64,000 bases of DNA, taken from contig NZ_CP086615.1 of assembly GCF_020883455.1 (NCBI RefSeq), positions 1,736,001 to 1,800,000 of the forward strand, written 5' to 3'. Below the pieces are notes generated by a model. It was not told the origin of the DNA. It searched no databases and saw only the letters and a program-made list of their open reading frames with translations. The translations under genes were made by a program, and so were the position numbers. Of this stretch, positions 11,896 to 34,318 are shown piece by piece. The DNA is from Spiribacter halobius (lineage in GTDB: Bacteria > Pseudomonadota > Gammaproteobacteria > Nitrococcales > Nitrococcaceae). Numbering within the stretch: the first letter of the stretch is position 1; each line of letters opens with the position of its first letter.

Positions 11896-14667
11896 TTACG
11901 AGCCGGTGCCGGCCGCGAGCCGCGGTGGGGCGGCGGGCTCGATGTCGCAGTGCTCGCCGCCGGCCCGGGGGAGGGTGACGATGAAGCAGGCGCCCTCGCC
12001 CGGGGTGCTCTCCACCGTGATGTCGCCCCAGTGCAGCTCGACGATGCGGCGGGCGATGGACAGGCCGAGGCCGCTGCCCTGGGGCTTGCCGGCGCGCTGG
12101 TCCTGAAGCTGGTGGAACTTCTCGAAGATGCGTGCCTGCTCCGCGGGCGGAATGCCGGGGCCGTTGTCCTGGACCCGCAGGGTGATGCGCTGGTCATCGG
12201 CCGCCAGACCGAGGTGCACCTCGCCGCTGCCGCGGGGGCAGAACTTTGCGGCATTGGAGAGCAGATTGATGAGGAGCTGCATCAGCCGGTCCCGGTCGCC
12301 CTTGACCGGCGCCGGCCCCTTGGGTGGATCCAGGCGCAGCGCTACCTCCGCCTCGTGGAACAGCTGCGAGGTCGCGTCCGCCGCCTCGCGCGCGACCTCG
12401 GCCAGGTCCAGCGTCTCCAGCCGCCAGCCGCTCCATCCGCTCTCCATCCGCGAGAGGTCCAGGACCTCGTTGATCAGGCGGCTCAGGCGCTCGGTTTCCC
12501 GGACTACGATCTGCAGGAACTCCCGGCGCTGCTCGTCGGGCATGTCCGGGCTCTCCAGCAGGATCTCGCCGAAGGCCCGGATCGAGGTGAGCGGCGTGCG
12601 CAGCTCATGACTGACCATGGAGACGAACTCGTCCTTGAGCCGGTCGAGCTCCTGCAGCCGCTCGTTGGCGGCGCGCAGCTGGGCGGTGGCGCGCTCCAGC
12701 TCCTGGGATTTCTGCTCCAGGCGTCGGCTGTATTCGATGGCCTGGGAGGTGGCGTCGAGGATCTCCAGCACGCCCTCGAAGGTGAGCGCTTCGCCCTTGA
12801 CCACCGAGCCCATCATCACCCGCGCCGAGGTGGCACCGATGTGCCCCGCGAGCAGCCGCTCGGCGTGGCTCACCAGGGCCGGGTCGGCGAGGGCGTCGTC
12901 CGCGGGCAGGCCGCCATGGCGGCGGCCATAGTCGGCGAAGGCCTCGTGGGTGCGCCGGGCGCCGAGGAAGCGGGCGAGCAGGGCGTGCAGGTCCGCCACC
13001 GTGGTGCGTCCCTGCCAGAAGCGGCCCTCGTGGCCCGACTGACGGAAGACGTCCACGAACAGCGTCGCCTGGATGCGGTCGATGTCCCGTGTCGGGCCGA
13101 ACACCGACAGGCCGATGGTCAGCCCCGTGTTCAGCAGCAGGCTCCATAGGGTGCCGTGGGCGATCGCATCCAGCCCCTCGAGGCCGAACAGTGCCTCCGG
13201 GCGCAGCCAGCCGATCCCGCCCGGGCCCTCGGCGAGCCAGGCCATGGGCAGCCAGCCGGCCCGGATCAGCGCCGGCAGCAGCAGCGTGTAGCCCCAGACC
13301 AGGAAGCCGCCGACCAGGCCGGCCAGTGCCCCGCGGCGCTGGGCGCCGTGCCAGTAGAGCCCGAGCAGGATGGGCGGGGCGAACTGGGCCACTGCCGCGA
13401 AGGCGATGAGGCCGATGCTGACCAGCGCATAGCTTTCGCCCACCAGCGCGTAATAGACGTAGCCGAGCAGGACGACCGCCACGATGGCGAGCCGGCGCAC
13501 GCGCAGCACCAGCCGGCGCAGGTCGGCGTCGCCACGGCTCGGCAGCAGGCCGCTGCGCAGCAGCGCCGGCATGACGAGGTCGTTGCTGATCATGGTGGAG
13601 AGCGCCACGGTGGCGACGATCACCATGCTGGTGGCCGCGGAGAAACCGCCGAGATAGACCAGCAGCGCCAGCAGCTCCTGGCCCTGGGACAGGGGCAGGG
13701 TGAGTACGAACGTGTCCGGGTCCACGCCATGGCCTAGGGTGAGCAGCCCGCCCAGGGCGATGGGCAGGACGAACAGGTTGATCACGAACAGGTACAGCGG
13801 AAACAGCCAGGCCGCGGTGAGCAGGTGCCGCTCGTCGGTGTTCTCCACCACCGTGATCTGGAACTGCCGCGGCAGGAAAAGCACCGCCGCCATTGACAGC
13901 ACCGTCAGCGCGATCCAGTGCCCGTAGCCGCCCGGCAGCGCCCCGAGACCGAACAGCGGCACAAGCTCGGGCTGGCTCGAGGCCCGCTGCAGCAGATCGC
14001 CGACGCCGTTGAACAGCCCCCAGGTCACGAACGCCCCGACGGCAAGAAAGGCCACGAGCTTGACCACCGACTCGAAGGCGATGGCCACCACCATGCCCTC
14101 GTGGCGCTCGGTGGCGTCCAGGTGGCGGGTGCCGAAGAGGATGGCGAACGCCGCCAGCACCATGGCCACGTAGAAGGCCTTGTCAGACAGGAAGAGCCCC
14201 GAGCCGACCATGGCCTCGCCCCCCTGGAGCACGCTGAAGCTGGCGGAGACGGCCTTCAGCTGCAGGGCGATGTAGGGTGTGGAGGCCACCACGGCGATCA
14301 CGGTGGACGCTGCGCCGAGGCCGACGCTCTTGCCGTAGCGCGAGGCGATGAAATCGGCGATGGAGGTGATGCGGTAGGTCTTGCAGATGCGGATGATCTT
14401 GCGCAGCACCAGCCACCACAGCGCCGCCATGAGGGTAGGGCCGAGGTAGATGGGCAGGAAGCCGATGCCGGTCGCCGCGGCGCGGCCCACGCTGCCGTAG
14501 AAGGTCCAGGCCGTGCAGTAGACGGCGATGGACAGGGTATAGACGTAGGGGTTGCCGGCGAGCGAATTGCCCGCGTCCGCGCGCCGGTCCGCCAGCCAGG
14601 CGATGGCGAACAGCAGCGCCAGATAGAGGAAGGACAGACCTAGGATCAGCCCCTGGTCAACTGTCAT
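11896..14667 (-). CDS. Na+/solute symporter-like sensor histidine kinase with STAC domain
   Basis: 923 aa inner-membrane kinase. Residues about 5-490 form a complete sodium/solute symporter (SSS) module of about 13 membrane helices. A STAC-type linker follows at about 520-625, then a coiled coil at about 640-680. The HisKA domain carries H687 in VSMVSHELRTPL, and the HATPase has DNGPGIP and GSGLGLSI. This is the MxtR/CrbS layout, in which the transport-like domain senses or moves a substrate to control kinase activity. It overlaps by 11 bp the small membrane gene at 14657-14845. It lies downstream of the exonuclease and receiver genes on the same strand, so a four-gene operon is likely. The ligand cannot be read. 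In Pseudomonas and Vibrio, related kinases govern acetate metabolism. Confidence 0.92.
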   Translation of the reverse strand: MTVDQGLILGLSFLYLALLFAIAWLADRRADAGNSLAGNPYVYTLSIAVYCTAWTFYGSVGRAAATGIGFLPIYLGPTLMAALWWLVLRKIIRICKTYRITSIADFIASRYGKSVGLGAASTVIAVVASTPYIALQLKAVSASFSVLQGGEAMVGSGLFLSDKAFYVAMVLAAFAILFGTRHLDATERHEGMVVAIAFESVVKLVAFLAVGAFVTWGLFNGVGDLLQRASSQPELVPLFGLGALPGGYGHWIALTVLSMAAVLFLPRQFQITVVENTDERHLLTAAWLFPLYLFVINLFVLPIALGGLLTLGHGVDPDTFVLTLPLSQGQELLALLVYLGGFSAATSMVIVATVALSTMISNDLVMPALLRSGLLPSRGDADLRRLVLRVRRLAIVAVVLLGYVYYALVGESYALVSIGLIAFAAVAQFAPPILLGLYWHGAQRRGALAGLVGGFLVWGYTLLLPALIRAGWLPMAWLAEGPGGIGWLRPEALFGLEGLDAIAHGTLWSLLLNTGLTIGLSVFGPTRDIDRIQATLFVDVFRQSGHEGRFWQGRTTVADLHALLARFLGARRTHEAFADYGRRHGGLPADDALADPALVSHAERLLAGHIGATSARVMMGSVVKGEALTFEGVLEILDATSQAIEYSRRLEQKSQELERATAQLRAANERLQELDRLKDEFVSMVSHELRTPLTSIRAFGEILLESPDMPDEQRREFLQIVVRETERLSRLINEVLDLSRMESGWSGWRLETLDLAEVAREAADATSQLFHEAEVALRLDPPKGPAPVKGDRDRLMQLLINLLSNAAKFCPRGSGEVHLGLAADDQRITLRVQDNGPGIPPAEQARIFEKFHQLQDQRAGKPQGSGLGLSIARRIVELHWGDITVESTPGEGACFIVTLPRAGGEHCDIEPAAPPRLAAGTGS

Positions 14668-14845
14668 CCGCCCTCCGGTGCAGCGCCGCGAGCAGCAGGA
14701 TGAAGCCGGCCCAGACCGCGAACAGCCCGGCCCAGAGCCATCCGCGGCCGGCGGCGGCGAGCAGAGACAGGCCCGGGTAGGCGAAGACCACCAGTCCGAG
14801 CAGGAACAGCGCCACGGCGCGATCGGCGAAGCGCGAGCGTGACAT
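14657..14845 (-). CDS. small two-helix membrane protein upstream of the SSS kinase
   Basis: 62 aa with two hydrophobic segments (about 10-30 and 36-54) separated by a short loop, a basic N-terminus and an HRRADD tail. Its 3' end overlaps the kinase start by 11 bp, which implies coupled translation. The exonuclease gene ends only 2 bp before its start codon on the transcribed strand. I do not recognise the family. Comparable tiny membrane proteins precede SSS-type kinases, including the second one in this window (33753-33947). A partner or chaperone role is inferred from position only. Confidence 0.7.
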   Translation of the reverse strand: MSRSRFADRAVALFLLGLVVFAYPGLSLLAAAGRGWLWAGLFAVWAGFILLLAALHRRADDS

Positions 14846-14847
14846 GG

Positions 14848-16935
14848 CTAGAAGGCCCGCTGCTGGCGCCGGTACTCGACCATGCGCTCGGAGGCGCCGA
14901 CCGCGTCGCGCAGGGTGACGATGCCCTGGGTCGGCAGCAGATCCAGCAGGCGCACGAAGATCTCCGCGGTGGTGAGGGCATCCCCGAGGGCCGTGTGGCG
15001 TCCGCCGACGCTCACGCCGAGGCGCTGCGCGATGGCCTCCAGCGTGTGCTCGGGAGTGTGGTCGTGGATGAGGATGGACAGCAGCAGCGAGTCGAGCACC
15101 GGGTTGTCGAAGATCACCCCGGTGGGGCGCTGCTTCAGCTTCAGGAAGCGCATGTCGAAGGCGACGTTGTGCCCCACCAGCACGGCGTCGCCGACAAAGG
15201 CGCGAAAACGCCGCAGCGCCTCGGCGATGTCCGGCGCGTCGGCCACGTCGGCGTCGGTGAGTCCGTGGACTCGGGTGGCGAGCTCCGGGATGCCGCGGCC
15301 GGGGTTGACCAGGGTTTCGAAGGTCTCGCCATGGATGACGCGACCGGCGGTGACCCGCACCGCGCCGATGGCCACGATCTCGTCGCCGTGGCTGGGCTCC
15401 AGGCCGGTGGTCTCGGTGTCGAAGACGACGTAATCCAGCTCCGCCAGCGGCCGCTCGGCCAGCTCGCCCAGCGGCCGGGCGCGCTCACTCAGGCTGAAAT
15501 CGTAGAACTCGGGCCGCGGCGGCAACGGCCGGCCCGGCTCCAGCTTGGCCGGCGCCGCGGGCAGGGGCAGCCGGAGCAGGGCGCGCTGCTCGTCCGCCGG
15601 CTCGCGAAAGCTCCAGACGGTGGTGTCGTGGCGCTCCAGCACCTCGCGGGCGCTCACCGTGCCGCCCACGTCCTCCAGGGGGGCGTCCAGCCAGCCGGCG
15701 AGGCGGGCGGTGGGGACTGGCCGGCCGGACCAGCTCATGTCCAGATAGACGCGGCTGCCTTCCTCGCGGCCGCTGACCGTGAGCGCCGCCACGGCGTGCT
15801 CCGTGCGCAGGCGCAGCAGCAGCGTCTCCAGCACCTGGCTCACCAGATAGGGCTCGGCCCGCACCCAGACATCGGCGGCGGCCTGTACCCGCGGCAGGGC
15901 CTCGCCCTGGCGCTGGACGACGCTCGCCAGCAGATCCCCGGCGTGGACGTCTTCCAGCCGCCAGTTGTCGGTAACCACGGATTCCGTCTCGGCGCAGAGC
16001 CGCGCGAAGCGCTCGCCGAGGCGCGCGCTCTCGTCATCGATCACCCGGCCGAACCGCTCGACGTCGGCGGTGAGGCCCTCGGCGCGGGCGATGGCCAGGT
16101 TCTCGCTCGCCGCCCGCAGGCTCGCCAGGGGATCGCGCAGTCCCTCCACCTCCTGGCGCAGGGCACGCTCGCGGCGCAGCAGGGCGCGGGTGCGGGTGCT
16201 GACGTCCTCCAGCGTGAGCACGAAGCCGCCGGCCTCGGGGCCGTCCTCTGCCAGCAGGGTGACCCGGCAGCGCAGCAGTCGGTCGCCGCTTGCGCTGGCG
16301 CAGACAAGGTCGGCGCCGTCGTTGCCGCCGGCCTCCGCGCCGGCACGGCGCTGGCGCAGCAGGTCGAGGGTGTGGCGCAGGGGCGCGTCGTTCAGCACCT
16401 CGCCCACCCGGCGGCCGAGGCCGAGGGCGGGCTCGCCCTGGAGCAGGGCGCGGGCGGCATCGTTGTAGAGCAGGAGTCGGCCCTCGGCGTCACAGACCAC
16501 GACGCCCTCGCGGATTTCCCGCAGCACCGTTTCCAGCCGCGCCTTGCGCTCCTCCAGCCGGGCCGACCAGGCGGCCACCGCCTCGCCGAGCTCCGCCTGA
16601 CTGCGGCTGATCGCCGCCCCGAGCTCCTGCACCCGCTCCGGCAGCCGCTCCAGCCAGTGGCGGCCGCGCAGCTCCAGGCGGTGCTCGGGGTTGGAGCAGG
16701 CGAGGATTTCCGCACCGCGGCTCACCGTCGCCAGAGGGCGCAGCACCCGCCGGTCCAGCACCACCACGATCAACAGTGTCACCAGGATGGCGAGGCCGCC
16801 CAGGGCGAGCACTGCCGGCATCGCCGCCGGATAGCCGAGGGCAAGCCCCGCGGTGAGGCCGGCGAGGATAAGCACCCCCAGCGCGGCGAGATACCAGGCG
16901 CGGCGGCGGATCGGGGGCAGGCGGAAGGCCCGCAC
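14848..16935 (-). CDS. membrane-anchored PAS/kinase-like protein fused to a DEDDh 3'-5' exonuclease
   Basis: 695 aa. There are two membrane helices at about 12-33 and 39-60, then a HAMP-like/coiled stretch. A PAS domain (about 130-230, EGVVVCDAEGRLLLYNDAARALL) is followed by a kinase-like region (about 235-430) in which I see no convincing HisKA histidine and only a poor ATPase. The C-terminal DnaQ-like exonuclease starts with the Asp/Glu pair of FDTETTG at 506-508. Later come VGHNVAFDMRFLKL and HTALGDALTTAEIF, which supply the remaining acidic residues and the catalytic His. It lies 3 bp from the receiver gene. Such fusions sit beside MxtR-type kinases in other gammaproteobacteria. The nucleic-acid substrate and the meaning of membrane anchoring are unknown. 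Confidence 0.88.
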   Translation of the reverse strand: MRAFRLPPIRRRAWYLAALGVLILAGLTAGLALGYPAAMPAVLALGGLAILVTLLIVVVLDRRVLRPLATVSRGAEILACSNPEHRLELRGRHWLERLPERVQELGAAISRSQAELGEAVAAWSARLEERKARLETVLREIREGVVVCDAEGRLLLYNDAARALLQGEPALGLGRRVGEVLNDAPLRHTLDLLRQRRAGAEAGGNDGADLVCASASGDRLLRCRVTLLAEDGPEAGGFVLTLEDVSTRTRALLRRERALRQEVEGLRDPLASLRAASENLAIARAEGLTADVERFGRVIDDESARLGERFARLCAETESVVTDNWRLEDVHAGDLLASVVQRQGEALPRVQAAADVWVRAEPYLVSQVLETLLLRLRTEHAVAALTVSGREEGSRVYLDMSWSGRPVPTARLAGWLDAPLEDVGGTVSAREVLERHDTTVWSFREPADEQRALLRLPLPAAPAKLEPGRPLPPRPEFYDFSLSERARPLGELAERPLAELDYVVFDTETTGLEPSHGDEIVAIGAVRVTAGRVIHGETFETLVNPGRGIPELATRVHGLTDADVADAPDIAEALRRFRAFVGDAVLVGHNVAFDMRFLKLKQRPTGVIFDNPVLDSLLLSILIHDHTPEHTLEAIAQRLGVSVGGRHTALGDALTTAEIFVRLLDLLPTQGIVTLRDAVGASERMVEYRRQQRAF

Positions 16936-16938
16936 GGC

Positions 16939-17313
16939 TCAGTCCGCCTCGCCGGCGAGCCGTCGCACGCGCTCCACCACCTCGCGGGTGGAGAACGGCT
17001 TGACGATGTAGTCGTCGGCGCCGAGGGACAGCCCCTTCTCCCGGTCCACCTCGCGACCGCGGGCGGTGAGCATGAGGATGGGGACGCTCTCGAGGCCGGG
17101 TTGCTCGCGCAGGGCCTGGCAGAGCTCGTAGCCATCCATCCCGGGGAGCATGATGTCCAGCAGTACGACGTCGGGGCGCTGCTCGCGGGCCGCTGCGAGG
17201 GCGCCTTCGCCGTCATTTGCCGTGGCCACGCTGAAGCCGCTGCGGCTCAGCAGGAACTCCAGCGAGAGCACGATGTTGGGTTCGTCGTCGACGATCAGCA
17301 CGTGTTGGGCCAT
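16939..17313 (-). CDS. single-domain response regulator
   Basis: 124 aa receiver with no output domain. The acidic pocket is at D9-D10, the phospho-acceptor is D53 (LLDIMLPGMDGYELC), and the switch Thr and Lys lie in LTARG and YIVKPF. It is the first gene of the minus-strand cluster, divergent from the DUF294 gene with 218 bp between them. The likely phospho-donor is the SSS kinase three genes downstream. With no DNA-binding domain it should act by protein contact, perhaps on the PAS-exonuclease or as a phospho-sink; this is inference. Confidence 0.9.
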   Translation of the reverse strand: MAQHVLIVDDEPNIVLSLEFLLSRSGFSVATANDGEGALAAAREQRPDVVLLDIMLPGMDGYELCQALREQPGLESVPILMLTARGREVDREKGLSLGADDYIVKPFSTREVVERVRRLAGEAD

Positions 17314-17531
17314 GGCGGCGCCCTTGTCGTTCTGGCGGACCCGGTGCCGCCCGTCTCTCCTCCAGCGGCCGCCCCTGGGCGGCCGGGGATCCTTGCCCTC
17401 AGTATACGCACGCGGCAGAGCGGCTTGTCAGCGGCCCGGCGGCGTTCGACCGGGGACCGCTGACGGGGCTACTCTGGTGGCTGGTGCACCGGGCTCGTAC
17501 GGTCGGTGCCGCCTTCGCCGCGGGAGTGATC

Positions 17532-19421
17532 ATGGACGCTGATGCCGCCGCCAGCGTGCGCGCTTTCCTCGAGGCCCATGCGCCCTTCGACGGTCTGCTG
17601 CCGCGCCATCGCCAGTATTTCGCCGAACACTGCGAGCAGCGGGACTACGCGCCGGGGGAGGTGATCCTCGAGCCGCGCATGGGGCGGGTAAGCCATTTCC
17701 ACCTGGTGGCCGCGGGCCGCGTCCGGGGCGAACGCCCCGACATCGGCGACGACGGCAGCGAGGCATTCGAGCTCGGCGAGGGGGATACCTTCCCCATGGC
17801 CGCGCTGCTCGGGGAGCGGGCGACCAGAACGGTCTACCGGGCCGAGGATGCCGTGCGCTGTTACCGGCTCGCCCGCGAGCACTTCGAGCGCCTGTTCACC
17901 GAGAGCCCGGCGTTTCGGGACTACTGCATCCGCGGCGTGAGCAGCCTGCTCGAGCAGGTGCAGCAGGACATCCAGCGTGGCGCGGCACGCAGCCTCGGCA
18001 GCGAATCCACCCTGGACATGCCGCTGGCGCGACTGATGCGGGCCGAGCCGCTGAGCTGCCCCCCCGAGCTCAGCGTGCGCGAGGCGGTGGAGCGCATGCA
18101 TGCGCGCAAGGTCGGCAGCATGGTCGTGGTGGACGAGGCGCAGCGCCCGGTCGGCATCTTCACGCTGCACGACCTGCGGGCCCTGATCGCCGCCCGCGCC
18201 GACCTGGAGGCGCCCATCGGCTCCGTGATGACGCCGCGCCCCTGCTGCCTGTCCGCCGAGACCTATGCCTTCGAGGCGGTGGTGGAGATGGCCCAGCGGC
18301 ATATCCGCCACGTGGTGGTCACCGAGGGGGAGCGCCTCGTCGGCGTCGTCTCCGAGCGTGATCTCTTCGCGCTGCAGCGGATCAACGTCGTGCACCTGAT
18401 GCGCGCGGTGGCCCGGGCCGAGAGCCTGGACAGGCTGGTGGCCGCCCGCGGCGACATCAGCCGGCTGATCGACGGCATGATGGCCCACGGCGCCGGCGTC
18501 GAGCAGATGACCCGCATCATCACCCTGCTCAATGACCGTACCGTCTCCCGGGTCATCGAGCTCTGCCTCGCCGAAGAGGACGACCCCGGCGTGCCGTTTA
18601 CCTGGATTGCCTTCGGCAGCGAGGGGCGCAGCGAGCAGACGCTGGTGACCGATCAGGACAACGCCATTCTCTTCGACCCCGGCAGCGAGGACACCGTCGC
18701 CGTGCGCCAGCGGCTGCTGCCCATTGCCCGGCGCATCAACGAGGCGCTGGACCGCTGCGGCTTCCCGCTCTGCAAGGGCAACATCATGGCGAGCAACCCG
18801 CGTCTTTGCCTGAGCTTCGCCGAGTGGGAGGAGGCGTTCCGCCGCATCGTGGCGAGCGCCACGCCGGAGCATCTGCTGGATTCCACCATTTACTTCGACT
18901 TCCGCCCGGTGTGGGGTGATATCGCCTTCGGTGAGCATCTGCATCAGCGGGTGCTCGCCATGGCCTCGGGTAACAGCCTGTTCCTGCATACGCTGGCGGG
19001 CAACGCGCTGTCCGTGAAGCCGCCGCTCGGCGTCTTCCGGGACTTCGTCACCGAGCGCGATCCCAAGGACGACGTCCACCGGCTCGATCTCAAGATCCGC
19101 GGGCTGACGCCGTTCGTCGATGGCGCCCGGGTGCTCTGCCTGCAGGCCGGTATCGAGGAGACCAATACACCGGAGCGCTTCGCCCGCCTGGCCGAAGCGG
19201 AGGCAATCCGCGGCGAGGAGGCGGAAGCGTTCACGCGCTCCTTCGCCTTCGTCCAGCTGCTGCGCATGCGTGAGCACCAGCGCCAGGCCGCCGCCGGCCT
19301 GCCCATGCACAACCGCCTAGACCCGGAGACCCTCAACCCGATGGACCGGCGCATCCTCAAGGAGGCCTTCCGCCAGGCCCGCCGGCTCCAGCGCAAGCTG
19401 GAGATCCGCTTTCACCTGTAG
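17532..19421 (+). CDS. cNMP-binding/CBS/nucleotidyltransferase (DUF294) signalling protein
   Basis: 629 aa. A cyclic-nucleotide-binding-like domain occupies about 20-130. A CBS pair occupies about 160-280 (MRAEPLSCPPELSVREAVERM, then VMTPRPCCLS). A DUF294 putative nucleotidyltransferase has the motif GSEGRSEQTLVTDQDNAI at 362-379, with the DxD-like TDQDN, followed by the DUF294 C-terminal helical domain. GlnD-like nucleotidyl transfer to a protein is suspected for the family but not shown. ATG 17532 was chosen over an upstream in-frame start because GGGAG precedes it and the conserved part begins there. It is divergent from the receiver/exonuclease/kinase genes, a neighbourhood conserved with MxtR/CrbS systems. 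The stop codon lies inside a 17-bp perfect hairpin. Confidence 0.9.
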   Translation: MDADAAASVRAFLEAHAPFDGLLPRHRQYFAEHCEQRDYAPGEVILEPRMGRVSHFHLVAAGRVRGERPDIGDDGSEAFELGEGDTFPMAALLGERATRTVYRAEDAVRCYRLAREHFERLFTESPAFRDYCIRGVSSLLEQVQQDIQRGAARSLGSESTLDMPLARLMRAEPLSCPPELSVREAVERMHARKVGSMVVVDEAQRPVGIFTLHDLRALIAARADLEAPIGSVMTPRPCCLSAETYAFEAVVEMAQRHIRHVVVTEGERLVGVVSERDLFALQRINVVHLMRAVARAESLDRLVAARGDISRLIDGMMAHGAGVEQMTRIITLLNDRTVSRVIELCLAEEDDPGVPFTWIAFGSEGRSEQTLVTDQDNAILFDPGSEDTVAVRQRLLPIARRINEALDRCGFPLCKGNIMASNPRLCLSFAEWEEAFRRIVASATPEHLLDSTIYFDFRPVWGDIAFGEHLHQRVLAMASGNSLFLHTLAGNALSVKPPLGVFRDFVTERDPKDDVHRLDLKIRGLTPFVDGARVLCLQAGIEETNTPERFARLAEAEAIRGEEAEAFTRSFAFVQLLRMREHQRQAAAGLPMHNRLDPETLNPMDRRILKEAFRQARRLQRKLEIRFHL

Positions 19422-19643: not shown

Positions 19644-20522
19644 CTAGACCTCGCCACCATCGCTCAGCAGCGCCTTCAGCAACTGATTGGGAAAACGTCT
19701 CCGCATGGCCACGGCGTAGAAGGTCTCGGCGATGCCGGGGAGGCGGTCCGCCTCCACCAGCGTGCCCTGGGCGAGCTCGTCGCGTACGACGATCGGCGGG
19801 AGGATGGCGAGGCCGACGTCGGCGCGGCCGAGCAGTCGCATCATGGCCATGTCGTCCACCTCGGCGGCGATCCTCGGTGCCACGCCCAGGCGGTCGGTGA
19901 GGGCGTCGAAGCCGCTGCGCACGCTGCTGCCCGGGGTCGGCAGCACCACCGGATGGTGGCGCAGCAGCGCGTCCAGCGGGCCGCCGCCGGCGAGCCGCTG
20001 CGGCGTGCCCACAAGGCTCACCGGCTGCTCGTCGAGCCGGTGCACGAGGAATCGGGTGCGGGCGTCCGCCGGCGGCGGCCGGTTGCTGAGGACAACGTCC
20101 AGGGTAAGCGCCTGCAGCTCGGCGAGCAGTTCCGCCTGACTCCCCGAGCGCAGCACCAGGTCCACGTCCTCCCGCCCGAGCAGCGGGCGCAGGAAGCTGA
20201 TCTGGAAATTGCGCGAGAGCGTGGCCAGGGCGCCGACGCGCAGCGCCTGCCGGGCCTCGCCGGTCTGACGCAGGGTCGCCAGCAGCTCGGTGCCGGTGGC
20301 GAAGATCGCGTCGGCGTGGTCCAGGGCAATGCGTCCGGCCTCGGTGAGGTGCAGGCCGCGGCCGCGGCGCTCGAACAGGTCATGACCGAGGCGATCCTCC
20401 AGCTTGCGGATCTGCACCGAGAGTGCGGACTGGGACAGATTCAGCCGCTCTGCGGCCCGGGTCAGGCTGCCCTCGTGGGCCACCGCGTGGAAATAGCGCA
20501 AATGCTGAAGGTTGAGGTTCAT
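19644..20522 (-). CDS. LysR-family regulator, NhaR-like, divergent from dabBA
   Basis: 292 aa. The HTH is at 1-60 (MNLNLQHLRYFHAVAHEGSL, AAERLNLSQSALSVQIRKLE), followed by the marker LFERRGRGLHLTEAG and a periplasmic-binding-like effector domain. The N-terminus resembles the NhaR branch more than typical CysB or CbbR proteins. ATG 20522 was preferred over an upstream in-frame ATG because it aligns with family starts. It lies divergent to dabB with 200 bp between, holding a perfect dyad at 20544-20562. LysR regulators next to DAB genes usually respond to inorganic-carbon supply, so control of dabBA is a strong inference. The effector is unknown. Confidence 0.88.
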   Translation of the reverse strand: MNLNLQHLRYFHAVAHEGSLTRAAERLNLSQSALSVQIRKLEDRLGHDLFERRGRGLHLTEAGRIALDHADAIFATGTELLATLRQTGEARQALRVGALATLSRNFQISFLRPLLGREDVDLVLRSGSQAELLAELQALTLDVVLSNRPPPADARTRFLVHRLDEQPVSLVGTPQRLAGGGPLDALLRHHPVVLPTPGSSVRSGFDALTDRLGVAPRIAAEVDDMAMMRLLGRADVGLAILPPIVVRDELAQGTLVEADRLPGIAETFYAVAMRRRFPNQLLKALLSDGGEV

Positions 20523-20543
20523 TACGGATAGCCTGGGTTGCAT

Positions 20544-20562
20544 CGTTCGATTTTATCGAACG
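20544..20562. promoter_or_regulatory. inverted-repeat operator between lysR and dabB
   Basis: CGTTCGAT-TTT-ATCGAACG is a perfect 8-bp dyad, of the T-N11-A type expected for LysR proteins. It lies 22 bp from the lysR start and about 160 bp before dabB. Confidence 0.6.
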
Positions 20563-20684
20563 AAACAGGTAGAACAATGAATTTTTTATGCGGCTCCGCG
20601 CTGGTACTGTCTGCGCGGTGCCGGCCCGTCGGGGCGCCTGATCCCGGCTGACCGAGGCGAATTCGAGACCTCGCGGGCCGCGCA

Positions 20685-20715
20685 CGGGCAACGGGCACTG
20701 GGCACTGGGCACTGG
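20685..20715 (+). repeat. tandem heptanucleotide array (CGGGCAA/TGGGCAC)
   Basis: The units are CGGGCAA, CGGGCAC, TGGGCAC, TGGGCAC, then TGG. The array ends at the Shine-Dalgarno sequence of dabB (AAGGAG, 20717-20722). Confidence 0.85.
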
Positions 20716-20722
20716 TAAGGAG

Positions 20723-22306
20723 ATGACCTTGAACACCGCCTGGCTTGTCGCACTGGCGCCGGGGCTGCTGCTAGCGGCCGCGGCCCTGGCTTTCCGAGAC
20801 CGCGCGCTGCGCCCGCGGCGTGCGCCGCGAGCGGTGGAGACTGCGGCCGTGCTCGCATTCGCCTGTGTCGCCCTGGCGGCCGTGGCCCTGGTGGGCGCGG
20901 GGTCGGTGACCTTCGGCCCGAGCCTCGCGGGGCTCGGTCTGACCCTGCGCGTGGACGTGGTGACGATCACGCTGCTGCTGCTGGTCACCTTCATCGGCTG
21001 GGTGGTGCTGCGCTACTCGGCCACCTACCTTGACGGTGAGCCCCGGCAGGGTCCCTTTCTGGGCTGGATGAGTGCCACCCTCGCCGCAGTGATGCTGCTG
21101 GTGAGCGCGGGTGATCTGCTCATGCTGCTGCTGGCCTGGGTCGCGACCAGCCTGACACTGCACCGCCTGCTGCTGTTCTACCCGCAGCGCCGGGCGGCCC
21201 GCCGGGCGGCGCGCAAGAAGTGGCTGGTGGCGCGCGCCGGGGACGTCGCCCTGGGCCTCGCCGCAGTGCTGCTGTGGCTGGCCACCGGCACCGGGGAGAT
21301 CACGGCCATCGGCAGCGCGGCGGATGCGAGCGGTCCGATGGTCATCCTCGCAGCGGGACTGCTGGCCCTGGCGGCGGTGCTCAAGTCCGCCCAGTTCCCC
21401 ACCCACGGCTGGCTCACCGAGGTGATGGAGGCGCCGACGCCTGTGTCCGCGCTGCTGCATGCCGGCGTGGTCAACGCCGGCGGCGTGCTGCTCATCCGTT
21501 TCGCCGATGTCATGCTGGCGGCGCCGGGCGTGCTTGCCGTGCTCGCCATGGTCGGCGGCTTCACGGCGCTGGCCGGGGGGCTGGTCATGCTCACCCAGAG
21601 CGCGGTGAAGACCTCCCTCGCCTGGTCCACCATCGCGCAGATGGGCTTCATGATGTTCCAGTGCGGCCTCGGGCTGTTCGCCCTGGCGCTGCTGCACATC
21701 GTCGCCCACTCCCTGTACAAGGCCCACGCCTTTCTCGGCGCCGGTGGCGCAGTGGAGCAGGTGGCGGCCAACCGCCGGCCCGGGCCGGTTGCCGTGCCCA
21801 GTGGCCGCGCGGTGTTGCGCTCCTTCCTGCTGGCGCTCGCCATCTACGCGGTCATCGGTCTGCTCTTCGGTGTCGAGAGCAAGTCGCCGCAGGCCATTGC
21901 CCTTGGCGCCATACTCATCTTCGGCGTCGCCTATCTCATCGCCCAGGGCCTTGCGGACGCCGCCCCCTGGGCCCTCACCCGGCGCACCGTGCTGGCGTCG
22001 GGGGCCGCCGCGGTGAGCTATTTCGCCCTGCAGACAGGCACCGAGTGGCTGGTGGCGGGCACGCTGCCGGCAACTCCGCCGCCCGGCCCCCTGGAGTGGG
22101 CGCTGATCGTCCTCGCGCTGGTGAGCTTCGGGACCGTCGCTGTGGCCCAGGCCCTGTTCCCGCTCTGGGCGGGGCACCCGGCGGCGGCCGGGCTGCGGGT
22201 GCACCTGGTCAATGGCCTCTATGCCAATGCCGTGTTCGACCGTCTCATCGGCGGCTGGTCCCACGCCTTCCATGATCGCCAGGGAGGGCTGCCTCATGAC
22301 CGCTGA
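20723..22306 (+). CDS. dabB: inorganic carbon transporter subunit DabB (NuoL/NDH-1 antiporter-like)
   Basis: 527 aa polytopic membrane protein of the proton-conducting NuoL/MrpA family. It has about 13-14 membrane helices and the lysine-bearing segment [29 protein letters not shown], as in proton-translocating subunits. There are no other complex I genes nearby. With dabA it forms the DAB system, in which proton flow through DabB is thought to drive CO2 hydration by DabA. AAGGAG abuts ATG 20723 with no spacer, so initiation may really occur at the in-frame TTG 20729, which has normal 6-bp spacing. It overlaps dabA by 11 bp. Confidence 0.9.
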
Positions 22307-24758
22307 GCACGGACTCGCCCCCGAGCAGACCCGCGCCGCCGTGGCGGCGGCGATCCGGCTCGTGCCGCCGCTCTGGCCACTCACCGGGAGCGTGGCGGTG
22401 AACCCGTTCCTCGGCCAGAGCATGGATGACCTGGCCTTCGCCTCCGTGCGGCTCGCCCGGGTGGCGGGCGAGCGGGCCGTCCCGGAGCGCGCCCTGCAGG
22501 CACGACGGCTGGCCAGCGGCGAGGTGAACGACAGCGACCTCGCCGCGGCCCTTGCCGCCCATCCGGAGCTCGGCGATCTCGATGTCGCCGGCCTGCGCGC
22601 CGCCGCCGAGCAGCCGAGGCCTGCCCCCGAGCCGCTGCCGACGGTGGCGGAGCTCGCCGGCGAGGCCTCCGGCATCGACTGGCCTGCGGTGGTGACGGAG
22701 CGGATCGGCGTATGGGCTGGCGGCTACTTCGACGAGGGCCAGGCGCTGTGGGCCGCGCCCCGGGGTCGCGGTGCCTATGCCGCCTGGCGTGCCTTCGCGA
22801 CCCGGGACCTTACCCCGGAGATTACCGGTCTGCGCAGCTTTGCCGCCTTCGTCGACGCAGCCCCCGAGCATGCCGAGGCAGCGCTGGCACGCAGCCTCCA
22901 CAGCCTGGGCGCCGGCGCCGCGGCATTGGAGACGCTCTGCCACCGGGCGCTTACCAGCCTCGGTGGCTGGGCGCAGCTCGGCCGCTGGCGGCTCTGGCAG
23001 GCCGAGCTTGCCGGCGGCAGCGACAACACGCTTTCGGACCTGCTGGCGGTGCGGCTGCTCTGGGAGGAGGCCCTGTTCTCGCAGTACCGCGATCGCATTG
23101 CCGAGCGCTGGTCGGAAGTCCTTGCGGCCTACGCGGAGCCGCCGCGGCCGGCGCGGGACGACCTCATCGACACGGTGCTCCAGGAGGCGGCCGAGCGCGC
23201 CGCCCAGCGCCGGCTGGGATCCGTGCTGACGGCGGCGCCCGCGGCCACCCCGGAGCACACCCGGCCCGAGCTGCAGGCGGCCTTCTGCATCGATGTCCGC
23301 TCGGAGCGCTTCCGGCGCGCGCTGGAGGGGGTCGCACCGGCCTGCGAGACCATCGGCTTCGCCGGGTTCTTCGGCCTGCCCCTGGCGCACCGGCGCTTCG
23401 GCTCCATCCTCGAGGAGGCCCGGCTGCCGGCGCTGCTGGCGCCTGCGGTGCATTCGTCGCCGGGCGTGGAAGAGGCAGCGGAAGGCCGTGCCCGCATCGT
23501 CGCCCGGGCCCGGCGTGCCTGGGGCCGATTCCGGCTCGCGGCGGTTTCCTCGTTCGCCTTCGTCGAGGCTGCGGGGCCGCTGTACGGGTACAAGCTGGTG
23601 CGTGACAGCCTCGCCGCCGTAGGGCGGCGGCCGCCGCGGGAGCCACAGCCGGTGCTGGCGGATGAGGCCACGCGGCAGGCCCGGATCGGGCTCGCCGCCG
23701 GCATCCTGCGCGGCATGTCCCTCACTGAGGGCTTCGCACCCATGGTGCTGCTTGTCGGCCACGGTGCCAATGTGGTCAACAACCCCCATGCCAGCGCCCT
23801 GCACTGCGGCGCCTGCGGTGGCCAGAGCGGCGAGATCAACGCCCGTCTGGTGGCCGCGCTGCTGAACGCCCCGGACGTCCGGGGCGGACTGGCCGGGGAG
23901 GGCATCGAGATCCCCGACGACACCTGCTTCGTGCCCGGCCTCCATGACACCACCACGGACCAGGTCACCCTCTACACGGAGGACCTGCCGGCACCGCTCC
24001 CGGCCGCGAGCCGGGAGCGCCTGGAGGCCTGGCTGGCCGAGGCCGGAGATCGGGTGCGCACGGAGCGCGCCGGCACGCTGCCCCGGGTCGAACGGGCCCG
24101 CCATATCCTGCGTCGTGCCCGGGACTGGTCGGAGGTGCGACCGGAATGGGGGCTGGCCGGCTGCCGTGCCTTTGTCGCCGCACCGCGCGCGCGCACCGCC
24201 GGCCGCGCACTGAATGGCCAGGTGTTCCTGCACGACTACGACTGGCGTGCCGATGAGCGCTTCGGCGTGCTGGAGCTCCTGCTCACCGCCCCGGTGGTGG
24301 TGGCGAGCTGGATCTCGCTGCAGTACTACGGGTCCGCCGTGGCCCCGGAGACCTTCGGCGCCGGCAGCAAGCTGCTGCACAACGTCGTTGGCGGGATCGG
24401 CGTGCTCGAGGGCAATGGCGGCGTGCTGCGCGCCGGTCTGCCCTGGCAGTCGGTGCACGACGGTGAGCGGCTGGTGCACGACCCCCTGCGCCTGACCGTG
24501 GTCATCGAGGCCCCGCGCGAGGCCATCGCCGACGTGCTGCAGCGCCATCCCGAGGTGCAGGCGCTGTTCGACCAGCGCTGGCTTCACCTTCTGGTGCTCG
24601 ATGAGACGGGGCGTCTGGCGTGGCGTTACGCCGGCAACCGCCAGTGGATTCCGGCGGCCACGTCCGCAGACACCGACGCCGCAATGGCGAAGGGCGGACC
24701 GAGGCCGACGTCCACTGCGGAAAACGCGGACGTCGCGCGGGCACGGCGAGCCCCGTAG
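22296..24758 (+). CDS. dabA: inorganic carbon transporter subunit DabA (DUF2309)
   Basis: 820 aa, cytoplasm-facing partner of DabB with a beta-carbonic-anhydrase-like zinc site. The expected ligands are visible: C331 and D333 in [12 protein letters not shown]489 in LLVGHGANV and C504 in LHCGACGG. Family hallmarks include [16 protein letters not shown] at the N-terminus and EFYGSA-type text ([23 protein letters not shown]) near the C-terminus. ATG 22296 was chosen because it begins the conserved N-terminus and overlaps the dabB end by 11 bp. The pair suggests active CO2/bicarbonate accumulation for autotrophic or anaplerotic carboxylation. No RuBisCO or carboxysome genes are in the window. Confidence 0.94.
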
Positions 24759-24932: not shown

Positions 24933-26705
<1,773 letters not shown>

Positions 26706-26720
26706 GCCTGTGTCCCCCGC

Positions 26721-26987
26721 TTATTCCTCGTGCACGTCGTATTTGCGGTCCAAGGCGTTCATCTTGGCCACATACACGAAGATCAGCACGATGAAGGTGT
26801 AGATCGAGCCCTGCTGGGCGAACCAGAACCCAAGCGGGTAACCGCCGATGACGATGTTGTTGAGCGCCGGCGCGAGGAAAATCCCCAGGCCGAACGAGAC
26901 CGCGAACCAGATGATCAGCAGCGTGATCAGCAGCCTCACGTTCTCTTTCCAGTAGGCGATGGCCGCCTCTTCCTTCGATGAAGCCAT
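26721..26987 (-). CDS. symporter small subunit (DUF4212)
   Basis: 88 aa with two membrane helices (about 18-40 and 55-75). It has the family pattern YWKENVRLLITLLIIWFAVSFG, then GGYPLGFWFAQQGSIYTFIVLIFVY, and a short acidic tail. DUF4212 proteins always accompany VC_2705-type SSS symporters and are probably needed for assembly or activity. GAGGAG precedes the start. It is the first gene of a two-gene operon with the symporter, with a sigma54-like promoter and a GTTACC-N4-GTAAC motif upstream. Confidence 0.92.
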   Translation of the reverse strand: MASSKEEAAIAYWKENVRLLITLLIIWFAVSFGLGIFLAPALNNIVIGGYPLGFWFAQQGSIYTFIVLIFVYVAKMNALDRKYDVHEE

Positions 26988-27191
26988 ACTGAGCTCCTCC
27001 TCTTTCCGTCACTGACCGGACCCCCCTGGATACAGAGTCCGGCGCTTACGGTTGACGCGGGCGTTTCGGGCGTTCGGGCAGGGGGGTGACCGGACGCGAT
27101 CGGCGACCGGTGATCTCCTCCTCGAACGGGTGCGAGCCCCCGTCGTCTTATCGATCAGCCCCGTCCCGCGGAGCGATCGTCCCCTGCGAGC

Positions 27192-27207
27192 TGCAGGATT
27201 CGTGCAA
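27192..27207 (-). promoter_or_regulatory. sigma54-like promoter of the DUF4212-symporter operon
   Basis: On the minus strand it reads TTGCACG-AATC-CTGCA. Spacing equals the -24/-12 consensus TGGCACG-N4-TTGCA, with one mismatch in each box. It sits about 65-80 bp downstream of the shared activator motif. Confidence 0.4.
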
Positions 27208-27270
27208 GCCTGTGTGCCCTAGAGAAAACAACGGGTTGGCGTCCATCTCAGCCCTTACTTCCCTGTCCGC

Positions 27271-27285
27271 GTTACCGTTGGTAAC
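27271..27285 (-). promoter_or_regulatory. candidate CbrB-type activator site (symporter)
   Basis: The palindrome GTTACC-GTTG-GTAAC has the same arrangement as the site ahead of acs. The published CbrB recognition element in Pseudomonas is built from TGTTAC half-sites, which this matches. Confidence 0.55.
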
Positions 27286-27310
27286 GCTCATGCGTGTTGC
27301 GGGGTAACAT

Positions 27311-27340
27311 CGGGCCGGCAGCGCCATGGCTACCGGCCCG
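27311..27340 (-). terminator. hairpin after acs
   Basis: CGGGCCGGTAG pairs with CTGCCGGCCCG (minus-strand reading) over 11 bp with one G-U pair and an 8-base loop. It has no U-tract, so it is a weak or factor-assisted terminator at best. Confidence 0.4.
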
Positions 27341-27349
27341 GTTCGGAGG

Positions 27350-29287
<1,938 letters not shown>

Positions 29288-29324
29288 GCCGTTTCTCCTC
29301 CTGTCGATGTCTGAAAGTGTCCCC

Positions 29325-29340
29325 GGCGAAGGCCGTGCCG
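29325..29340 (-). promoter_or_regulatory. sigma54-like promoter of acs
   Basis: On the minus strand it reads CGGCACG-GCCT-TCGCC. It has GG-N10-GC spacing and only two departures from TGGCACG-N4-TTGC. The predicted start is about 27 nt before the acs ATG. Confidence 0.5.
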
Positions 29341-29475
29341 TCGCCGTCGGTCAACCATCCCCGCCCGGGTCGTTGTTGTTCTCGTCGCCTGGCTCCGAGC
29401 TTTCCCAACTTTAACAGACAGGCCGCGATTCGCCTGTCGTCGCGGGCGTCCCGCGGTATCTGAGTGCTACTGCGC

Positions 29476-29501
29476 GTAACAGACCGTTACCCTAAGTAAC
29501 A
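29476..29501 (-). promoter_or_regulatory. candidate CbrB-type activator site (acs)
   Basis: Three half-sites, GTAACA (29476), GTTAC (29486) and GTAACA (29496), are spaced exactly 10 bp apart. They include GTTACC-CTAA-GTAAC, the same composite motif found ahead of the symporter operon. The site lies about 150 bp upstream of the -24/-12 element. Confidence 0.6.
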
Positions 29502-29502
29502 A

Positions 29503-30826
<1,324 letters not shown>

Positions 30827-30834
<8 letters not shown>

Positions 30835-33763: not shown

Positions 33764-33947
33764 GCCGCCCCAGCCGCCGCACCACCAGCCCGATCAGCAC
33801 GATCAGCAACAGCCACAGCGCATAGGCCGTATACCAGGGCGGCTGCCGGGCGGCCCACCATTCGGTGAACGGCGAGGCAAAGAGCAGCAGCCCGAACAGG
33901 AAGACGATCAGACTCCCCGCGCCAGCGCCATGATCCGATGGAGCCAT
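33753..33947 (-). CDS. small two-helix membrane protein upstream of cbrA
   Basis: 64 aa with a short acidic/Gly-rich N-terminus, two hydrophobic segments (about 13-30 and 39-58) and a basic RRLGRHDL tail. ATG 33947 was chosen because GAGGAGGAG precedes it; an upstream in-frame ATG adds 12 unsupported residues. It overlaps cbrA by 11 bp, the same overlap as the small membrane gene and kinase at 14657-14667. A short membrane protein of this kind (CbrX-like) is known upstream of cbrA in Pseudomonas. Its role is not established from sequence. Confidence 0.72.
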   Translation of the reverse strand: MAPSDHGAGAGSLIVFLFGLLLFASPFTEWWAARQPPWYTAYALWLLLIVLIGLVVRRLGRHDL

Positions 33948-34318
33948 GCTCTCTCCTCCTCGCAGCGTTACAGAAGGTAGCACAAGGGCGGCGCGGCGGG
34001 GTCACGCCATCACGTATCAGCGCCGGCGTTCGGTCCTTGGCCCGCACATCTCACCGATTCGCGGCTGCGGGCGTGCACCGTGTTTTGGCGCGCTTGTGCC
34101 CGTCATGCGCCTGCTCAAAACTGGCGGTTCCCTTGTGCGGGCGCGTTCACGACTGACCGCTCCCCTCCGCGGGCGGACTGCGTGGCACCGCTCGGAGATG
34201 TGGCGATGCAGACGACGGACACGGTCGCGCAGGGCTGAAAGACGGCGCGGCAGGCGGCCGCCGATGGTGAGCGGCCGGCTCGCCGGAGCCGCCATCCCGT
34301 TGCGTGGGGCTGACGCTC
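33948..34318. other. 371-bp divergent intergenic region
   Basis: It separates the minus-strand cbr operon from the plus-strand NmrA/AraC fusion gene. GTTAC-AGAAG-GTAGC (33966-33980) differs by one base from the GTTAC-N5-GTAAC motif and sits just ahead of the operon's first start codon, suggesting possible autoregulation. No gene is visible. Confidence 0.5.

Follow-up and report, generated by a model that had tools for sequence, protein, structure and literature searches.

The described sensor kinases of the SLC5-STAC type (CrbS, CbrA and RpuS) act via transcription factors, as far as the portions of the literature compared here relate. Genes of the CBS/transferase type, PP_0354 and Pflu5625, belong to the MxtR/ErdR or CrbS/R regulon, and in Pseudomonas putida PP_0354 shares an operon with PP_0353, which encodes an RNase_T protein (excerpts of PMC9927547 and PMC5715377, the operon from the former). 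The same excerpts of PMC9927547 add that deletion of pp_0353 slows the onset of growth on pyruvate, and that in P. aeruginosa an exonuclease/CBS-DUF294-type pair adjoins actP. Here, we describe a gene cluster of Spiribacter halobius, at positions 11896-19421 of a 64-kb stretch of DNA (the window) from a 4.17 Mb genome on a single contig. It encodes a sodium:solute symporter-type (SSS) sensor kinase, HK1; a lone receiver, REC; a DUF294 protein; and a membrane protein, EXO, whose predicted exonuclease is fused to a degenerate histidine-kinase core. On balance, we favour a reading in which HK1 phosphorylates REC, and REC docks on the EXO pseudokinase in the manner of DivK on DivL, gating the predicted membrane exonuclease. 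The cluster belongs to a real, conserved and apparently undescribed branch of SSS-kinase acetate systems; titles and abstracts, in literature mostly without subscription journals, held no description of the fused pseudokinase-exonuclease or of this gene set.

The cluster comprises the following features, with window positions and Pfam E values.

11896-14667, minus strand: HK1, SSS/SLC5-type sensor histidine kinase, 923 aa (SSF 3e-6, HisKA 1e-21, HATPase_c 3e-31)
14657-14845, minus strand: small hydrophobic open reading frame (ORF), 62 aa, in a CbrX-like position, overlapping the HK1 start (crude gene call)
14848-16935, minus strand: EXO, predicted membrane-anchored PAS/pseudo-histidine-kinase/DEDDh exonuclease, 695 aa, GTG start (RNase_T 1.6e-35, PAS_4 1e-5)
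14896-15447, minus strand: predicted DEDDh 3'-5' exonuclease domain of EXO, residues 497-680 (D506, E508, D594, H647, D652)
15556-16200, minus strand: predicted pseudo-histidine-kinase core of EXO, residues 246-460 (E264 in the His column; N-box and G-boxes degenerate; R267, at H+3, kept)
16939-17313, minus strand: REC, lone PhoB-type receiver, 124 aa (Response_reg 1e-33; D9, D10, D53, T83, K105)
17532-19421, plus strand: DUF294 protein, likely ATG start at 17532 (cNMP, two CBS, DUF294 1.8e-45, DUF294_C 5.5e-43)

A preliminary description of this DNA had placed four genes here with these domains, in one divergent cluster; both points hold, as HK1, EXO, REC and DUF294 are all open, the expected Pfam domains are present, and the last two genes are divergent. 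It overlooked the 62-aa ORF, which has hydrophobic helices and whose relatives adjoin HK1 in several loci. REC and EXO lie only 3 bases apart, and the ends of the small ORF and HK1 overlap by 11 bases (crude gene calls), so REC, EXO, the small ORF and HK1 look like one operon.

Pfam detects only PAS and RNase_T-type domains in EXO, the first after N-terminal hydrophobic helices and the second on the C-terminal side. The preliminary description had likewise read EXO as PAS plus exonuclease; both domains stand, but the degenerate kinase core at about residues 246-460 was missed. A profile of the stretch between PAS and nuclease aligns with the HK1 kinase core along its whole length at an hhalign probability of 99.4 (E = 4.8e-21). 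The profile of the whole family matches the VicK-like structure 4i5s over profile positions 48-474 (E = 6.6e-25) and DivL, 4q20 (E = 1.6e-7), and the top Foldseek matches of the AlphaFold2 (AF2) model (pLDDT 88.6) are full sensor kinases: a WalK model, LOV kinases and again 4i5s. In the aligned EXO family, the phospho-His column holds His in 0/83 rows and Glu in 56/83; the N-box Asn column holds Arg in 45/83 and Asn in 2/83; and the column of the ATP-contacting Asp holds Trp (W402) in 82/83. By this alignment, the core is a predicted pseudokinase, having neither a phospho-His nor a working ATP site. The nuclease, by comparison, keeps all five DEDDh residues in 83/83 rows, and its modelled domain superimposes on PolC exonuclease (Z 24.2, 1.8 Å over 190 residues) and Pol III epsilon (Z 20.6, 1.7 Å over 164 residues). 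With the D-E-D-D-H set on a DnaQ fold, EXO is a predicted DEDDh 3'-5' exonuclease.

The dead core resembles the kinase next door. HK1 carries its phospho-His at H687 in HisKA, and its H, N, G1 and G2 boxes are intact in 63/63 HK1 rows. In a search of the window genome with the EXO-core profile, HK1 scores 58.8 bits, ahead of the runner-up kinase at 28.0. Across all fetched loci, 95 non-hybrid HK1-type rows (with repeats between loci) score 40.4-67.5 bits, as compared with 7.8-21.4 for three CrbS-like hybrids, at most 26.2 for 24 other rows, and 7.9 for HK2, the second SSS-type kinase of the window. As a control, an HK2-core profile (3 sequences) shows no preference for HK1 (74 vs 81 and 79). 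A profile of the HK1 core places several other kinases of the same genome far above EXO (11 bits), a low rank that is expected given the loss of catalytic motifs. The simplest reading of these profile scores is that a duplicated HK1-type core was fused to an exonuclease. Alternatively, a shared docking constraint might account for the likeness.

R267, three residues after the lost His, is the lowest-entropy residue of the pseudo-DHp (dimerisation and histidine phosphotransfer) region, kept in 80/83 rows. A271, A275, A276 and E278 of helix 1 are also well kept; like R267, each ranks within the 25 positions of lowest entropy in the core. The corresponding Arg of DivL, R553, follows Y550 (over the phosphotransfer site) by three residues, and the substitution R553A weakens DivK~P binding, according to the part of the study consulted (PMC4211667).

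Two side observations concern EXO genes elsewhere. The EXO gene of one Spiribacter-like locus (L037, genome G015) is broken into a pair of overlapping frames covering query residues 1-431 and 402-695, a possible frameshift, with DUF294 and REC open. Another genome (G031) has three fused exonuclease paralogues in separate neighbourhoods (L024, L025, L040), each near a DUF294-type gene by a crude label.

REC has the DD, D, T/S and K residues of a receiver and no output domain, and is thus a single-domain response regulator. Its best NCBIfam model is PhoB, with a score below the cut-off. A profile of lone RECs gives 127.6 bits to a 229-aa regulator of the same genome, which lies beside a kinase and is PhoB-like by size and place, vs 25-41 bits for the receivers of four CrbS-like hybrids (the other four ORFs listed, truncated or of other make, gave no receiver match). 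These scores rule out REC as a detached CrbS receiver.

The family of the window genome (f1) offers a natural experiment on the link between HK1 and REC. HK1 at E <= 1e-100 is found in 0/22 other f1 genomes, the window genome being alone among the 23 examined. Fourteen of the 22 have REC beside EXO, and in these RECs D10, of the acidic pocket, is lost in 13/14 (H 7, S 5, N 1) and the phospho-Asp D53 in 5/14 (N 4, E 1); A84, a small residue, is replaced in 13/14. The docking face persists, and N13, L18 and K105-P106-F107 are kept in 14/14, as is F/Y20, and L21 in 13/14. By comparison, none of the 87 other genomes lacks D10 or D53 (89 RECs, including one doubtful match in G248, a 36% match to a 217-aa regulator; repeat genomes, loci L085-L091, are left out of this count and included in the locus count below). 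In the EXO tree, the window genome and g2, the Spiribacter-like group within f1, form a group that excludes genome G004 (support 1.0); two or more losses of HK1 are therefore implied, barring regain, and REC has decayed in both lineages. The genomes are related, so the experiment amounts to few independent events. Every decayed REC comes from a genome lacking HK1, although loss or absence of HK1 is not always followed by decay. Outside the HK1-less f1 members, an HK1-type gene lies within 5.5 kb of REC for 67/89 RECs.

The genes also travel together on a wider scale. In a class-wide sample of 274 genomes (parts of the scoring drew on the 3-4 best first-look candidates per genome), EXO at E <= 1e-80 occurs in 11 and full-length HK1 in 12, the latter being a split by aligned length of the 17 genomes with matches at E <= 1e-150. 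Both occur in 9 (Fisher p = 5.6e-13, shared ancestry ignored), among them G064, whose kinase (locus L072) counts as full-length HK1 here and falls outside the HK1 clade in the kinase tree. DUF294_C is found in 77 genomes, namely 11/11 with EXO vs 66/263 others (p = 5e-7, again ignoring shared ancestry). We also mapped named loci around the best 80 of at least 535 EXO relatives, some on short contigs, with counts taken from tblastn or six-frame ORFs. In 67 of these 80 loci, REC has its centre no more than 3 kb from EXO; HK1 is present in 46, a DUF294-type transferase in 49, and an SSS permease in 42. The DUF294 count uses the transferase half, as some 340-520 aa 'DUF294' labels on the locus maps may match CBS regions only. 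At least one of REC, HK1, DUF294 and permease accompanies EXO in 75 loci, the five with none being from Accumulibacter. By their labels the loci come mostly from Alpha-, Beta- and Gammaproteobacteria and Magnetococcales, and otherwise from single metagenome-assembled genomes (MAGs), so that the set covers several proteobacterial classes. The preliminary description had proposed an under-described signalling system with nuclease and possible nucleotidyl-transfer outputs, and named absence of co-occurrence as a finding that would count against it; the nine joint genomes and the best-80 loci agree in supporting the proposal, and show the set to be conserved.

HK1 itself had been linked to MxtR/CrbS loci. 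This identity is not supported, though the architecture is related: an SSS domain is fused to a HisKA/HATPase core, as in CrbS/MxtR kinases, but HK1 has no PAS or Response_reg match at E <= 1 (Pfam). There is no Pfam STAC match either; alignment to MxtR-like kinases runs to residue ~656, and the linker is STAC-like by inference. In the kinase tree, the HK1 clade (30 tips, support 0.975) lies next to an MxtR-like hybrid clade (5 tips, support 1.0), while the non-hybrid kinases L072 and L176-L179 sit outside both, and a truncated ORF, L174, is an outlier. By this tree, HK1 is a non-hybrid relative of CrbS/MxtR in a clade of its own. The Pseudomonas genome of locus L141 carries an HK1, an MxtR-like and a CbrA-like kinase, by architecture; more generally, we presume the CrbS and CbrA labels of compared loci from architecture. 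Separately, L180 encodes an SSS protein related to the sensor part of HK1, in which a GGDEF/EAL-like output, judged by eye from the C-terminus, replaces the kinase.

The cluster had been taken to end at 19421. Its four genes stand as a unit, but the block continues: about 5.5 kb past DUF294, beyond a LysR gene and genes that we take to be DabB/DabA-like, lie the following features (24933-33947).

24933-26705, minus strand: VC_2705-family sodium:solute symporter, acetate-type by context (TIGR03648, 840 bits vs a cut-off of 321)
26721-26987, minus strand: symporter small subunit, DUF4212 (PF13937 5.7e-36, TIGR03647)
27350-29287, minus strand: Acs, acetate-CoA ligase (TIGR02188, 1058 bits vs a cut-off of 725)
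29503-30834, minus strand: RR2, NtrC-type sigma-54 response regulator (Pfam Response_reg and Sigma54_activat)
30827-33763, minus strand: HK2, second SSS-type kinase, CbrA-like (PAS, HisKA, HATPase_c; SSS part by similarity to HK1)
33753-33947, minus strand: small ORF, 64 aa, in a CbrX-like position, overlapping the HK2 start

In relatives, a large part of this block is again found with the cluster, and the symporter adjoins EXO/DUF294. The gene order of Spiribacter-like relatives runs PNPase, EXO, REC, DUF294, symporter, small subunit, Acs, RR2, HK2, and the cluster is thus part of an acetate-use block. The earlier statement that no transcription factor is present thus holds for the four genes alone, but not for the block, given RR2. 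Scans of the window for sigma-54 (-24/-12) patterns returned 24 matches vs 24.2 expected and 9 vs 7.4 expected, numbers so close to expectation that they give no sign of RR2 driving the cluster from such sites. HK2 groups with CbrA-like kinases in the tree, apart from HK1. In P. putida, CbrX and CbrA are coupled at the level of translation, according to the available part of PMC6591292. Neither the 62-aa nor the 64-aa ORF has a Pfam match. The LysR and DabB/DabA-like genes (19644-24758) are absent from this spot in Spiribacter-like loci. Further along, an NAD(P)-binding/NmrA-like domain and an AraC-type HTH domain occur together in a single 434-aa ORF (34304-35608).

We propose that the cluster forms the signalling part of a conserved locus for acetate (short monocarboxylates). 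The symporter-like domain of HK1 would sense a solute or the state of transport, and HK1 would then transfer phosphate to REC, the step in which we have the most confidence and which is very likely. REC~P would bind the EXO pseudokinase core, which appears to keep the docking face of helix 1; this docking is likely. Bound REC~P would switch the membrane-held DEDDh exonuclease, much as DivL reads DivK~P, although for REC-gated nuclease activity we consider the chances even. Carrying cNMP and CBS sensors and a GlnE/DrrA-type transferase, the DUF294 protein may act in the same pathway, and would probably tag a protein of acetate uptake or activation (the symporter or Acs). Acetate or a related acid is a plausible signal, with the balance somewhat in its favour.

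Several observations weigh against this proposal. Another His is present close to the lost one, no more than about four columns away, in 19/83 EXO rows, and four residues upstream of it in 16/83, so that a shifted phospho-acceptor is conceivable in those rows; 10 of the 83 rows are from the window's own family. An Arg at H+3 also belongs to the ordinary HisKA motif, and conservation of R267 is for that reason support for docking, not proof. EXO occurs without HK1 (E <= 1e-150) in 2/11 class-wide genomes (G131 and G251, drafts with EXO at contig ends). G020, inside g2, keeps D10 and an intact REC pocket, and only an HK2-type kinase was found there. Outside f1, the whole genomes of 17 loci with REC beside EXO and no HK1 nearby were searched, and REC is intact in all 17, several of which are draft MAGs. 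Three of these (G313, G320, G322) have no match at E <= 1e-60; G317 has only an SSS protein with GGDEF/EAL-like output; five (G312, G314, G315, G316, G318) have only hybrid or partial relatives; and eight have a near-full-length relative elsewhere, which in G323, G325, G326 and G327 falls outside the HK1 clade. These HK1-less genomes with intact REC rule out a strict dependence of REC on HK1, and suggest that other kinases may sometimes serve it. Finally, the link to acetate comes from the neighbourhood and from soluble Pseudomonas relatives, and in P. putida growth on 20 mM acetate is unchanged in both pp_0353 and pp_0354 deletions, in the results consulted (PMC9927547). The preliminary description had also held that service of the receiver by an unrelated kinase would count against it. 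On this point the evidence mostly favours HK1, through its proximity to REC, its pairing with REC in genomes that have HK1 alone, and REC decay after HK1 loss, while the intact RECs just described speak in part to the contrary.

The pairing just mentioned also opens a different account of EXO. HK1 occurs without EXO in 3/12 class-wide genomes (G053, G100, G149), with REC beside it in 3/3, so REC may have other targets; and 13/80 of the best-80 loci, some on short contigs, have no REC near EXO, which moreover owns a PAS domain. The HK1-REC pair might then work on something other than EXO, acting perhaps as phosphate sink for HK2/RR2 or in crosstalk with them, with EXO an independent, co-regulated, PAS-controlled membrane nuclease whose core is an inherited linker or dimerisation module. 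We regard this account as unlikely, though worth keeping in view. It fits poorly with the closeness of REC to EXO in 67 of the 80 loci and with the low entropy of R267, A271, A275, A276 and E278, and pseudo-receivers stay beside EXO after HK1 loss with their docking face intact, whereas a pure phosphate sink needs none. A role of EXO as a membrane-tethered nuclease in defence against incoming nucleic acid is very improbable. In PADLOC, PDLC01247 (E = 4e-40) and two PDC-S48 models do hit the DEDDh domain, but the EXO matches are confined to that domain, those of REC and HK1 are weak and partial, and the DUF294 protein has none at E <= 0.001. The neighbourhoods seen are of acetate and symporter genes in many families, defence genes near other loci not having been searched for.

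For the DUF294 protein, the AF2 model (pLDDT 92) and the sequence indicate a predicted Pol-beta nucleotidyltransferase fold with a helical C-terminal domain and a GS...DxD site, of the GlnE type; the active-site set GS..R.E...DQDN is invariant in 61/61. The C-terminal half superimposes on both nucleotidyltransferase domains of E. coli GlnE (Z 26.9, 4.7 Å over 321 residues; Z 26.8, 2.9 Å over 304) and on DrrA (Z 25.6, 3.4 Å over 292). GlnE domains and DrrA are protein adenylylating or de-adenylylating enzymes, and because of this fold we favour predicted protein nucleotidylation over work on nucleic acids or small molecules, although the fold shows no substrate. One can imagine that the output of the cluster is a nucleotide switch on a protein: DUF294 would nucleotidylate the symporter or Acs, EXO would remove the nucleotide or destroy a nucleotide signal, and HK1 would set the balance because REC~P binds the decayed kinase core of EXO. 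We consider this version doubtful. The window genome has a second DUF294 protein (635 aa, 27% identical; G000:C1 ~2077540-2080190, L039:9542-12190), whose gene adjoins a stand-alone 242-aa exonuclease gene, like the Pseudomonas PP_0353/PP_0354 pair; the P. aeruginosa homologues of that pair are, we presume, PA3232/PA3233.

The preliminary description had called the purpose of the exonuclease and DUF294 partners not established, yet soluble relatives of both had already been tied to the CrbS/MxtR regulon in the excerpts consulted (PMC5715377, PMC9927547). EXO and DUF294 could be ordinary regulon members, serving nucleotide salvage or RNA turnover on acetate or pyruvate, with a neighbourhood that reflects shared transcription of the RR2/CrbR type. 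The P. putida operon would fit, PP_0354 being an MxtR/ErdR target and pp_0353 affecting growth on pyruvate, with no effect of pp_0354 seen in the text consulted (PMC9927547). So would the L141 Pseudomonas genome, in which a DUF294 protein 50% identical to that of the window is followed by a stand-alone 236-aa exonuclease. We nonetheless judge this improbable, as it leaves unexplained the HK1-like dead core on the nuclease, the lone receiver, and the decay of the receiver after HK1 loss.

In place of a transcription factor, the HK1 branch has a lone receiver, and an effector in which a dead, sensor-like kinase core is fused to an exonuclease. Under the docking model that we prefer, it would join DivL as a natural example of a kinase core that is dead and serves as a receiver's ear, with an enzyme as direct output. 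It also provides a concrete hypothesis for what the exonuclease and DUF294 genes, so far unexplained, do in the CrbS/MxtR acetate regulon, and the lineages that have lost HK1 make the wiring directly testable.

How does the cluster compare with described systems? Like CrbS/CrbR (MxtR/ErdR), a hybrid kinase with a LuxR-type regulator, it has an SSS-type kinase and an acetate gene context, and genes of the DUF294 and exonuclease families are among CrbS/CrbR targets (PMC5715377, PMC9927547, each in part). CrbS/MxtR has PAS between the linker and the kinase and a C-terminal receiver, however, whereas HK1 has neither by Pfam and forms its own clade, sitting with a separate PhoB-type receiver that lacks an output domain and with no LuxR partner in the cluster. 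With CbrX-CbrA-CbrB it shares an SSS kinase behind a small overlapping ORF, a form also taken by HK2, RR2 and the 64-aa ORF of the window; but HK1 belongs to another SSS-kinase clade, and the cluster has no NtrC partner of its own. As in PP_0353/PP_0354, an exonuclease gene adjoins a CBS/DUF294-type gene; the Pseudomonas exonuclease, though, is small and stands alone, while the exonuclease of EXO is fused to a predicted membrane pseudokinase and shares its run of genes with HK1 and REC. GlnE/GlnD and DrrA-type transferases resemble the DUF294 protein in the fold of its C-terminal half (Z 25.6-26.9) and the GS...DxD site, and differ in that the DUF294 protein has cNMP and CBS sensors in front. 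EXO also has a parallel in DivL-DivK of Caulobacter: it has PAS and a degenerate DHp/CA (catalytic and ATP-binding) core without the His, lies beside a lone receiver, keeps the Arg three past the His position, and matches DivL 4q20 by profile. Unlike DivL, EXO is predicted to be membrane-bound with an exonuclease output, its core is like that of the neighbouring HK1, and its binding to REC is a prediction.

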